A DNA stretch of 33,327 bases from Parvibaculum sp. (GTDB lineage: Bacteria > Pseudomonadota > Alphaproteobacteria > Parvibaculales > Parvibaculaceae). Shown one piece after another: positions 2,568-5,294 of the stretch (position 1 is its first letter; each line of letters starts with the position of its first letter). The position numbers and the translations under genes were made by a program. The stretch spans positions 1 through 33,327 of the forward strand of contig JAUXOE010000058.1 in the NCBI GenBank assembly GCA_030682415.1, given 5' to 3'. Below the pieces are notes generated by a model. It ran no database searches and was not told the DNA's origin. It saw only the letters and a list, made by a program, of their open reading frames with translations.

Positions 2568-3974
2568 ATGGCCGGCAAACCTATTCAGCAGCTCATCAAG
2601 GAAAAGGACGTCAAATATATCGACCTGCGCTTCACCGATCCGCGCGGCAAGATGCAGCACGTCACGTTCGACATCGGCTTCTGCGACGACGATTTCTGGG
2701 CCGAAGGCACGATGTTCGACGGCTCATCCATTGCCGGCTGGAAGGCGATCAACGAGTCCGACATGGTGCTGCTGCCCGATACGGCGACGGCGGTGATCGA
2801 CCCCTTCTATGCGCAGACGACGCTGGCCGTGTTCTGCGACATCATGGAACCGTCGACCGGCGAGTCCTATAGCCGCGACCCGCGCGGCACGGCGAAGCTC
2901 GCCGAGGCCTATCTCAAGTCGACCGGCATCGGCGACACGATCGTGTTCGGGCCGGAAGCCGAATTCTTCATCTTCGACGACGTCAAGTTCTCGACCTCGC
3001 CCTACAAGACCGGCTTCGAAGTCGACTCGGTCGAACTGCCGACCAATACCGACACCCATTACGAGACCGGCAATCTCGGCCATCGTCCGCGCACCAAGGG
3101 CGGCTATTTCCCGGCCAATCCGATCGACTCGTGCCAGGACCTGCGCGGCGAAATGCTGACGGTCATGGAGGAAATGGGCGTCAAGATCGAAAAGCACCAT
3201 CACGAAGTGGCCGCCGCGCAGCACGAGCTCGGCACCAAGTTCCAGACGCTGACGACGGCCGCCGACCACATGCAGATCTACAAATATGTGATCCACAATG
3301 TGGCGCAGGCGTTCGGCAAATCGGCGACGTTCATGCCGAAGCCGGTGTTCGGCGACAACGGTTCGGGCATGCATTGCCACCAGTCGATCTGGAAGGACGG
3401 CAAGCCGCTTTTCGCCGGCAACAAATATGCCGACCTCAGCCAGGAATGCCTGTGGTATATCGGCGGCATCCTGAAGCATGCCAAGGCGCTCAACGCCTTC
3501 ACCAACCCGTCGACCAACAGCTACAAGCGGCTGGTGCCGGGCTATGAAGCGCCGGTGCTGCTGGCCTATTCGGCGCGCAACCGCTCGGCCTCGTGCCGCA
3601 TTCCGCACGGCACGTCACCGAAGTCGAAGCGCATCGAAATCCGCTTCCCCGATCCAACGGCCAATCCCTATCTTGCCTTCGCGGCGATGCTGATGGCCGG
3701 CCTTGACGGGATCGAGAACAAGATCGATCCGGGCGGGCCGATGGACAAGAACCTCTACGACCTGCCGCCGGCGGAACTGAAGAATATTCCGACGGTTGCC
3801 GGCTCGCTGCGCGAAGCCCTGGTCGCGGTCGATGCCGACCGCAAGTTCCTGACCAAGGGCAATGTGTTCTCCGACGAACAGATCGACGGCTATCTCGAAC
3901 TGAAGTGGGAAGAATGCATGCGTTACGAAATGACGCCGCATCCGGTCGAGTACGACATGTATTATTCCTGCTGA
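2568..3974 (+). CDS. glnA: glutamine synthetase type I
   Basis: A 468-residue GSI enzyme that makes glutamine from glutamate, ammonia and ATP as a cytosolic dodecamer. Visible features are DGSS at 51-54, the ATP/metal segment FGPEAEFF at 127-134, the [12 protein letters not shown] motif at 258-269, and NRSASCRIP near 338-346 in the glutamate-binding region. Tyr397 in NLYDLPP matches the adenylylation site, so this is the GSI-beta form controlled by GlnE and PII. The ATG follows a purine-rich GGAAAAGAGGA stretch. The gene is downstream of glnB and ends in a strong terminator, so it is probably the last gene of the operon. Nothing is unusual about it. Confidence 0.98.
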
Positions 3975-3995
3975 TCGAGCCGGAATGGAGAATGG

Positions 3996-4025
3996 AAAGG
4001 CCGGTGCGCAAGCGCCGGCCTTTTT
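3996..4025 (+). terminator. Rho-independent terminator of glnBA
   Basis: AAAGGCCGG (3996-4004) pairs with CCGGCCTTT (4015-4023) around a GC-rich loop that can pair further, and the arm runs into five Ts. It starts 22 nt after the glnA stop. This is a textbook intrinsic terminator. Confidence 0.9.
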
Positions 4026-4040
4026 CGTTTGCGCGGGCGA

Positions 4041-4100
4041 GGATGTTCGCTCCGCTCACGGAACGTCCGCGGATATTCGCTCCGTTCACGGAGCGTCCGG
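4041..4100 (+). repeat. two tandem 30-bp repeats with palindromic cores
   Basis: Copies at 4041-4070 and 4071-4100 match at 26 of 30 positions and abut with no spacer. Each contains an inverted repeat. In copy 2 it is a perfect 7-bp stem, CGCTCCG (4078-4084) against CGGAGCG (4089-4095) with loop TTCA. In copy 1 one pair is lost to a substitution. The position just after a terminator fits a REP-like intergenic palindrome. It is not CRISPR, because there are no spacers. Confidence 0.7.
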
Positions 4101-4157
4101 CTCGTATATCGGTCAGCAGGGCTGACTCAAGAAACGCGGCGGAACCCCTTATTTTTC

Positions 4158-4187
4158 TTGACCTTTTTCGGATTTGAGGCGTAGCAT
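4158..4187 (+). promoter_or_regulatory. candidate strong promoter driving the 4.2-4.5 kb RNA
   Basis: TTGACC at 4158-4163 and TAGCAT at 4182-4187 are separated by 18 nt in an A/T-rich setting, with a T-rich stretch directly upstream. This resembles a housekeeping (RpoD) promoter. It would start transcription near 4194 and point into the foldable block, with no open reading frame behind it. Confidence 0.5.
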
Positions 4188-4193
4188 TCTACT

Positions 4194-4508
4194 GTCTCAC
4201 GAAGGAGGAGGTTTCGAAGATGGCTCCACCGACGCAGGTTGAATTCCTGTAAAGAATACGGAATTCGATCCTCTGCCAAGACCCGACGCTGTTCTCATGC
4301 GTGACCGGTCGGTAAACCGTTTAGGCCAAGGGAAAAGCGCGGATAAACACTGACGCCAGCGTCATGCTAATTGAGCGCGCGGGCATAAGGCACGGAGATA
4401 AGCCCGGCTTTATAGTGCGGGCGAGTGCGAGTAGCACATCCAAAAGCAACCCCGCGAGGGAACGCCCGACAGGAAAATCCGGGGCTTCCGCTTGAGCGGG
4501 GTTGCGCT
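4194..4508 (+). ncRNA. candidate structured non-coding RNA of unassigned family
   Basis: About 315 nt without a credible reading frame and dense in local pairings. These are: GAATTCC (4241-4247) with GGAATTC (4260-4266), extended by GTA/TAC around loop AAGAA; TGACG (4351-4355) with CGTCA (4360-4364), enclosed by GCGCG (4337-4341) and CGCGC (4376-4380); GCCCG (4402-4406) with CGGGC (4418-4422); GTGC (4425-4428) with GCAC (4434-4437); and a 10-bp closing stem GCAACCCCGC (4446-4455) with GCGGGGTTGC (4496-4505) enclosing GGAA/TTCC and CCCG/CGGG. The first half is visibly less GC-rich than the neighbouring genes. I could not match it to RNase P, tmRNA, SRP RNA, 6S RNA or a known riboswitch by eye. 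Ends are estimates. Confidence 0.5.
4446..4505 (-). terminator. possible minus-strand terminator of the MBL-hydrolase operon
   Basis: Read on the minus strand, the 10-bp stem GCAACCCCGC/GCGGGGTTGC is followed by TTTTGG, 22 nt beyond the stop of the MBL-fold gene. It could therefore terminate that operon instead of, or as well as, forming the 3' domain of the plus-strand RNA. The 40-nt interior and the short T-run make it a non-standard terminator. Confidence 0.35.
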
Positions 4509-4526
4509 ATATGAAAATTCAGAAAT

Positions 4527-5294
4527 TCAACCGTCCCGCCGCGCCAGATAGTCGTCGCAGAGTTCGACGAGTCGGGCGCCGTCGAAGCTCGGATCGTGGC
4601 CGCCGTGAACGGTGCGCGGTGCCATGTCGCGCAGACGGCGGATCGTTTTCACATAGGCGGCAATGTCCGAGCCCGGCAGTTCGTCGAGCAGCGGGCCGTC
4701 ATAGATTGCGTCGCCGGAAAAGAGCGTCTGCGTTTTTTCCTCCCACAAGCCGACCGAACCCGGCGAATGACCGGGCAGATGCATGACCTCGAAACGGCGG
4801 TCGCCGAGATCGACGGCGTCGCCCTCGCCGATCAGGCCGGTGGCTTGCGTTGAGGTGATGCCATAGGTGGCGATGTCGTAGCCTTCATGCGGCAGTGCAT
4901 CGATCAGCACTTCATCGCGGCCGAGGCCATAGCCGGCGAGCGCCTCGCGGATATCTTCGGGAAAGGCGGCGGCCGAGAGCGCGGCGAATTCGGTGTAGCG
5001 CTCCATGCGCGGCGCTTCGGCGGGGTGCATCAGCCGGTTCTCGAATTCGTGCAGCGAGCCGACATGGTCGTAGTGGCTGTGGGTGGCGACGGCGACCAGC
5101 GGATTGCCGGAGAGGCCGGCGATCTCGGCGGCCAGCGAGCAGACGCCGGTGCCGGTGTCGATCACCAGGTCGCGGTCGCGGCCGCGCACGAACCAGATGT
5201 TGCAGCGGATGAAAGGATGGACATGCGGCTCGAAGAGGAGCGTCACGCCGTCGTCCATCTGCCGCCGTTCGAACCATCGCTCCGCGATTTTCAC
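4527..5294 (-). CDS. metallo-beta-lactamase-fold hydrolase
   Basis: A 255-residue MBL-fold protein. The zinc-binding signature THSHYDH (71-77) supplies the HxHxDH ligands. HLPGHSPGS and FSGDAIYDG provide the further His and bridging Asp, and HGGHD near the C-terminus the last His. This is a complete dinuclear metal site, so the enzyme should be an active hydrolase such as a lactonase, glyoxalase II-like thioesterase or phosphodiesterase; the substrate is not predictable. There is no signal peptide, so it is cytosolic. The start is GTG at 5294 behind AAGGAGA. It lies 17 nt after the flavin oxidoreductase on the same strand, so the two are probably cotranscribed. Confidence 0.88.
   Translation of the reverse strand: MKIAERWFERRQMDDGVTLLFEPHVHPFIRCNIWFVRGRDRDLVIDTGTGVCSLAAEIAGLSGNPLVAVATHSHYDHVGSLHEFENRLMHPAEAPRMERYTEFAALSAAAFPEDIREALAGYGLGRDEVLIDALPHEGYDIATYGITSTQATGLIGEGDAVDLGDRRFEVMHLPGHSPGSVGLWEEKTQTLFSGDAIYDGPLLDELPGSDIAAYVKTIRRLRDMAPRTVHGGHDPSFDGARLVELCDDYLARRDG

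Follow-up and report, generated by a model that had tools for sequence, protein, structure and literature searches.

Positions 4194–4508 (forward strand) of the window, by which we mean the whole 33,327-nucleotide stretch of Parvibaculum sp. DNA analyzed here, are best read as a conserved RNA gene of an undescribed family that occurs in scattered Alphaproteobacteria and is without a match in Rfam. Comparison of homologous sequences suggests, with a probability of about 0.5, that the product is a dual-function regulatory RNA, in which translation of a micro-ORF would be gated by pairing of its Shine-Dalgarno (SD) sequence with its own Pro-Pro codons, and in which a 3΄ core would act in trans. 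The plan common to the family comprises an SD sequence, a micro-ORF of the form x-Pro-Pro-...-stop (5–17 residues in 18 of the 20 members from other bacterial families), two hairpins (P3 and P4) and a terminator-like hairpin (P5); in Parvibaculum, the RNA is larger, owing to a hairpin of hypervariable sequence, a further domain that covaries and, within P5, an inner hairpin (P5a). The initial annotation of this DNA had described a structured RNA that has its own promoter and belongs to no assigned family. Comparison upheld this description with regard to Rfam, fold, promoter, conservation and covariation, but the earlier reading had missed the micro-ORF and how widely the RNA is distributed.

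Both ends of the gene, which represents a long, Parvibaculum-type version with a covarying structure, were placed according to conservation. When copies were compared, the conserved block began near the promoter and ended directly 3΄ of the final stem; two copies (L001 and L002) are 99% identical, yet their flanking sequences differ, the downstream side included. The promoter-like element TTGACC-N18-TAGCAT, correctly noted in the initial annotation, lies at positions 4158–4187 (forward strand) and was examined by a pattern scan and by comparison: a single such pair was found between positions 3950 and 4700, compared with 0.3 ± 0.6 in shuffled sequences, and of the 28 distinct versions from Parvibaculaceae, 21 keep TTGAC with TAGC(A/C)T. 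Because a crude scan found no such pair in 9 of the 20 members from other families, we limit the claim of an own promoter to the Parvibaculaceae. Approximately 30 bp upstream of the –35 element, the palindrome GTCAGC-N3-GCTGAC (4112–4126, no strand assigned) is a possible activator site. It is the sole occurrence of GTCA-N7-TGAC in the window, and of the 29 distinct upstream regions from Parvibaculaceae, 18 have a match of this type and 11 lack one.

Between the glnA terminator and the promoter of the RNA, positions 4043–4102 hold two adjoining imperfect direct repeats of 30 nt, both of which include an inverted repeat (CGCTCCG...CGGAACG and CGCTCCG...CGGAGCG, respectively). The glnA terminator itself (3995–4032) is strong, consisting of GGCCGGTGCGCAAGCGCCGGCC and a T-run, and resembles, below the cut-off, several Rfam sRNA models (BjrC68, ar35) at their 3΄ end. 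The GC content is 0.529 in positions 4194–4350 and 0.614 in positions 4351–4508, against 0.605 in glnA and 0.659 in the MBL gene; the 5΄ half is indeed less GC-rich than these two genes, as had been claimed.

A search with the 4227 families of Rfam 15 returned no match at the gathering threshold in the window or in seven homologous loci. A permissive search of positions 3980–4600 gave nine matches, all of them outside positions 4194–4508, and the best was BjrC68 on the glnA terminator (E = 0.001). The initial annotation had also seen no resemblance to RNase P RNA, SRP RNA, tmRNA or 6S RNA. In agreement with this, RNase P RNA, 6S RNA, alpha-tmRNA and SRP RNA were all found in the same genome (2.97 Mb), each above the cut-off and on a contig other than that of the window, and the idea of a divergent housekeeping RNA was rejected because the four that were tested are located elsewhere. 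No described counterpart was found in the open-licence literature, including PMC10117765 and PMC3927594, which is weak evidence of absence.

Conservation beyond neutral drift, on which the earlier proposal of an RNA gene had depended, was evident from a blastn search with positions 4140–4530, which gave matches in 33 of 61 genomes (its own included). These covered 26 of the 27 genomes of the genus as well as genomes of three further genera of the same family; the match in genus g4 is a single 22-nt stretch. The 5΄ motif GGAGG-N2-5-RAAGATGRCYCCACCKRCG was present as a single copy in 33 of the order's 40 genomes, and a reversed-pattern control gave 0 matches. This motif scan supplied 28 stretches, labelled Parvibaculum (16), Parvibaculaceae (2), Rhodobiaceae (4), Hyphomicrobiales (2) and alphaproteobacterium (4). 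A mobile or phage origin is disfavored, as plasmids and phages yielded no blastn match and IMG/VR yielded no match of the 5΄ motif.

More distant homologues were sought with covariance models. Model R1, built from the 3΄ domain of 22 Parvibaculaceae sequences and run on 385 genomes of the class, matched five genomes of its own family and one place in family f64 (L098, E = 2.1 × 10–4). Since the first helix of its RNAalifold structure (alignment columns 12–53) disagrees with the P3 hairpin defined later, the R1 score rests largely on sequence. L098 is compact, with an SD hairpin and ATG ACA CCG CCC ... (MTPPDSLHS*), followed by P3, P4 and P5 (folding z = –6.17). A BLAST search from L098 led to L100 and L101, which have the same layout; two other matches of this search, L102 and L103, were judged by eye to be chance matches inside genes. 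Model R2, built from L098, L100 and L101, yielded seven more loci. A nine-sequence alignment (A2) was misregistered in P3, and no model was built from it. Model R3, built from P3–P5 of ten loci from other families with zero Parvibaculaceae sequences, was run on the same 385 genomes, and each of the 19 top-ranking places that it gave outside the own family (E ≤ 0.0017) carried an upstream SD-start-xPP element. Ten of these had trained R3 and nine were new; SD, NTG and xPP were present in all nine of the new places and in 0 of 18 weak-hit or other-class loci (16 distinct places). This comparison used an E threshold and an exact regular expression chosen once the R3 matches had been read, although the element itself was known from the earlier ten. 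As background, the generic element was present in 88 of 3986 overlapping segments of 230 nt drawn from 36 of these loci, with the true copies among them. Among the weaker places, one, L145 (R3, E = 0.04), also carried SD-start-xPP.

In the genome of the window, the sole R3 match at E ≤ 0.05 was positions 4396–4507 (E = 0.0083), which was also the best match of R3 within the window in a further search. The Parvibaculaceae-built R1 thus finds L098, and R3, built without Parvibaculaceae, finds positions 4396–4507; this reciprocity supports a single family. Among the five own-family genomes, R3 detected the RNA in G000, G011 and G030 and missed it in G028 and G032. R2 found none of these five, the window's included, genome-wide at E = 0.05; run locally, it found positions 4396–4507 at E = 0.0096, and both R2 and R3 find the own-family RNAs when given the loci. 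On 378 genomes across the phylum, R3 matched only four places at E = 0.01, namely the own RNA, an alphaproteobacterial terminator that had already been matched before, and one place each in G692 and G725, which belong to other classes; the latter two are terminator-like, lack the element and were judged by eye to be ordinary terminators or chance. Those R2 and R3 matches that were weak (E = 0.003 and above) and lacked the 5΄ element were likewise taken by eye for ordinary terminators or chance, a judgment that left out L124, L125 and L126 (R2) and a place in G384 (R3), and that for L141 had 22 nt of upstream sequence. The RNA was seen in 12 alphaproteobacterial families besides its own, with L145 weakly adding one. 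Members in these other families are short (about 140–220 nt), and the distribution is patchy, with 19 strong matches outside the own family in the 385 class genomes; the order of G125 has the RNA in three of four genomes. Stricter filters, used on large genome sets, may miss members.

The initial annotation had found no plausible protein frame in this region, which overlooked a conserved micro-ORF of ten codons (MAPPTQVEFL*, 4220–4252, forward strand). Its ATG (4220) is preceded at 8 nt by a conserved SD sequence, GGAGG (4207–4211, forward strand). The frame start M-[A/T]-P-P-[T/A] is common to 28 distinct Parvibaculaceae versions, and was fixed, Pro-Pro included, by the search pattern for 27 of the 28, L095 having been added by hand. 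Unlike the frame start, the conserved in-frame stop was not built into the search: it follows after 9–11 residues in 27 of 28 versions and after 19 in one, and may be TAA, TGA or TAG. The distal codons are hypervariable, with a mean pairwise identity of 0.42 (columns 53–90) compared with 0.87 in P3–P5. In control frame 2, a stop at codons 5–11 was present in 7 of the 28 Parvibaculaceae and 2 of the 20 other-family sequences. The corresponding number for control frame 1 was 2 of 28 Parvibaculaceae; this frame is a poor control, because it is often ended at once by the TGA of ATGA (by codon 4 in 15/28 Parvibaculaceae and 19/20 other-family sequences).

The ORFs of the 20 members from other families are 5, 7 (seven members), 8, 9 (four members), 10, 13, 14, 15, 17, 27 and 34 codons long. 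An early stop, i.e. one within 18 codons, was present in 18 of them, whereas mononucleotide shuffling of the 60 nt that follow predicts 9.0 (P = 1.6 × 10–5); when the close relatives L109, L110, L130 and L135 were removed, 14 of 16 had an early stop against 7.7 expected (P = 8 × 10–4). The start codon is ATG in 15, TTG in 3, CTG in 1 and ACG in 1, and is therefore NTG in 19/20. Codon 2 encodes Thr in 15 members by means of four different codons, and Pro-Pro is present in all 20, L145 having been accepted because of it and the other 19 having been ranked by P3–P5 or BLAST alone. The distance from the SD sequence to the start codon is long (12–15 nt) in 10 of the 20 members. L110 and L113 have ACG or CTG as the start codon and keep the frame and the stop, and the predicted SD hairpin (P1) is kept in L110. 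Because of these ACG/CTG starts and the 2/20 members without an early stop, translation may be dispensable in some members. In L107 and L113, CC is kept at codon 4, although the predicted P1 is limited there to GGAG and CUCC. In L130 and L135, a second micro-ORF with its own SD sequence stands just ahead of the usual one (MSNLTPPDGAPTFREGG and MTIETPPDGAHTTREGG); both tandem ORFs contain Thr-Pro-Pro, and the upstream one again contains Thr-Pro-Pro-Asp.

We computed the folding energy of the block as –126.3 kcal/mol, compared with a mean of –107.6 kcal/mol for shuffled sequences (z = –3.16), and 1 of 100 shuffles folded as well. At the 5΄ end, P1 (4207–4227, as all following elements on the forward strand) is predicted to pair GGAG (4207–4210) with CUCC (4224–4227, codons 2–3), with the start codon in its loop. 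P1 is without covariation support within Parvibaculaceae, because its pairs are invariant or changed on one side only. In other families, a P1 of three or more pairs between the SD sequence and codons 2–4 was predicted in 19 of 20 members, which is a raw count; several of these members have, by eye, a second helix involving the start codon (GUGC/GCAU, GUGG/CCAU or GUGU/GCAC). The hypervariable hairpin P2 (4237–4270; identity 0.42) holds the stop codon in its apical part, and per-sequence folding gave z below –1 in 9 of 20 sequences, which is only partly convincing. The middle domain (4282–4383), found only in the long version, consists of helices 4282–4289/4377–4383, 4299–4304/4362–4367 and 4308–4312/4350–4354, and eight of its pairs are changed on both sides in some sequence. 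P3 (GCCCG...CGGGC, 4402–4422) and P4 (GAGUGC...GCACAUC, 4423–4440) are common to other families. P5 (4446–4505), which is terminator-like without a U-run, pairs GCAACCCCGC (4446–4455) with GCGGGGUUGC (4496–4505). The 10-bp closing stem described in the initial annotation is this helix; it proved exact and conserved, and in Parvibaculum it encloses the inner hairpin P5a (4459–4489), formed by 4459–4467 and 4482–4489.

Covarying pairs, which the earlier proposal had also called for, were found in two alignments. In alignment A6 (20 Parvibaculaceae sequences, RNAalifold structure), 12 of 57 pairs were changed on both sides, a number reached by 0 of 500 shuffles and favored by scoring the structure on the very alignment that had yielded it; slid structures had at most 5 such pairs. 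In alignment A5 (10 other-family sequences; P3, P4 and P5), 9 of 24 pairs were changed on both sides (0/500 shuffles), the fit of A5 to the covariance model favoring the structure of that model. Further pair types were not clearly above shuffles (35/500 in A6 and 173/500 in A5). Because P4 and most of P5 are invariant within Parvibaculaceae (P4 throughout A6), it is A5 that supports them. We identified no conserved single-stranded seed in the RNA family.

The names of the window genes glnA and MBL were taken from the earlier reading, and the window ORFs were read by eye. In 23 of 28 contigs of Parvibaculales, the RNA is preceded by a co-oriented glnA, which ends 0.2–2.1 kb off and is within 700 nt of the RNA in 8 of 28; no glnA was found in the remaining five, four of which have less than 1 kb of upstream sequence. 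The MBL gene is a close convergent neighbor in 1 of 28 contigs. A glutamine synthetase gene is also upstream at L113, which belongs to another family. For 13 other loci, 30 ORFs within about 1.5 kb were searched against Pfam. Their neighbors include PAPS reductase, aminoglycoside acetyltransferase-type, rhodanese, gyrase-type, FKBP, universal stress protein and glycosyltransferase genes, and the convergent ones encode a thioesterase, a hydrolase or a lysyltransferase. A convergent gene comes next in the window and at L098, L107, L108 and L133, and a co-directional downstream ORF with a Pfam match is present at L100, L128 and L129. In the 28 contigs and 13 other loci, we found no constant co-directional downstream gene. 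Such unrelated neighbors speak for an independent RNA gene rather than a leader acting in cis.

We considered the possibility that the RNA is structured and non-coding only, the SD-like purines and CCNCC being the arms of P1 and the ORF being incidental. As CCNCC is complementary to GGAGG, Pro-Pro could indeed be an RNA-level constraint, and the replacement of ATG by ACG or CTG in L110 and L113, with the predicted P1 helix kept in L110, points in the same direction. However, we regard this explanation as unlikely in view of the early in-frame stops (27/28 and 18/20), which in frame 2 are found at codons 5–11 in just 7/28 and 2/20 sequences, the NTG start in 19 of 20 other-family members, the use of four codons for Thr at codon 2, and the CC kept at codon 4 in L107 and L113, where P1 pairs only GGAG with CUCC. 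The opposite possibility is a micro-mRNA, whose product is the peptide of 5–17 residues and whose 3΄ hairpins merely stabilize or terminate the transcript. The retention of the start, of [T/A/I/N/R]-Pro-Pro and of the early stop would agree with this, as would the tandem TPP micro-ORFs of L130 and L135; we nevertheless consider it distinctly improbable, since residues past codon 5 vary strongly whereas P3–P5 are conserved across families and covary.

Leader-peptide attenuators combine an SD sequence, a micro-ORF and a terminator-like hairpin. The window RNA resembles them in all three respects, and a leader-peptide-like ORF followed by a terminator-like hairpin, together with the co-directional Pfam-matched ORFs at L100, L128 and L129, would be expected if it controlled the next gene in cis, as a leader or attenuator whose conditional terminator is P5. 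Unlike attenuators, it has no constant downstream operon: the downstream genes share no common function, the next gene is convergent at the five places named above, and the downstream sequence differs even between the near-identical L001 and L002, which makes a cis leader very unlikely. The initial annotation had suggested kinship with HEARO/omegaRNA, which is associated with an IS605/IS200-type nuclease gene. A GC-rich multi-stem RNA outside known families is compatible with this or another transposon guide RNA, and the window RNA is, like HEARO/omegaRNA, a structured RNA of comparable size. However, no Rfam hit fell inside the RNA, even in the permissive search, the 5΄ motif occurs once per genome and mostly near glnA, and no transposase, TnpB-type or IS605/IS200-type nuclease gene was seen among the window ORFs (by eye) or the 30 Pfam-searched ORFs of the 13 loci; the suggestion found no support, and we consider such a guide RNA extremely improbable.

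The preferred reading, a dual-function regulatory RNA, has its nearest known kind, by analogy, in rnTrpL/peTrpL of Sinorhizobium meliloti, a dual-function sRNA with a translated micro-ORF and a role in trans; rnTrpL is the leaderless trp attenuator ahead of trpE (PMC10117765). Both are small alphaproteobacterial RNAs with a micro-ORF, translation and a trans role being conjectural for the window RNA, which differs in its promoter-like element, its SD sequence, the lack of a fixed downstream gene and its structure. The 'Cuckoo'/CcsR sRNAs of Alphaproteobacteria have the CCUCCUCCC motif in loops and a C-rich anti-SD-like stretch. The window RNA shares with them such a stretch in a small RNA; in contrast to theirs, its stretch is predicted to pair in cis with its own SD sequence, and CCUCCUCCC is absent from positions 4194–4508.

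The family, its fold, its ORF signature and the varying context were established by comparison, and from these we infer how the RNA may work. It would be transcribed alone, from its own promoter. Pairing of the SD sequence with codons 2–4 would hold the start codon in a hairpin and thereby control translation of the micro-ORF, and the passage or pausing of a ribosome, or the peptide itself, would set the state of the 3΄ core. P3–P5 would then act in trans, as a regulatory RNA or as a protein-binding scaffold. A more speculative version, to which we assign a low probability, is a translation sensor, in which the early Pro-Pro pauses ribosomes depending on the state of EF-P, tRNA(Pro) or a drug and so switches the 3΄ core between active and inactive forms. 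If this were true, the RNA would report translation quality in trans, and its Pro-Pro codons would double as an anti-SD lock.

These results add an RNA family without an Rfam 15 match, seen strongly in 13 alphaproteobacterial families (its own included) and weakly in one more, in which the start, the Pro-Pro pair and the early stop of an otherwise variable micro-ORF are retained next to a fold that is conserved. The sequences and models supplied here may serve for testing the cooperation of micro-ORFs and RNA domains outside model species.
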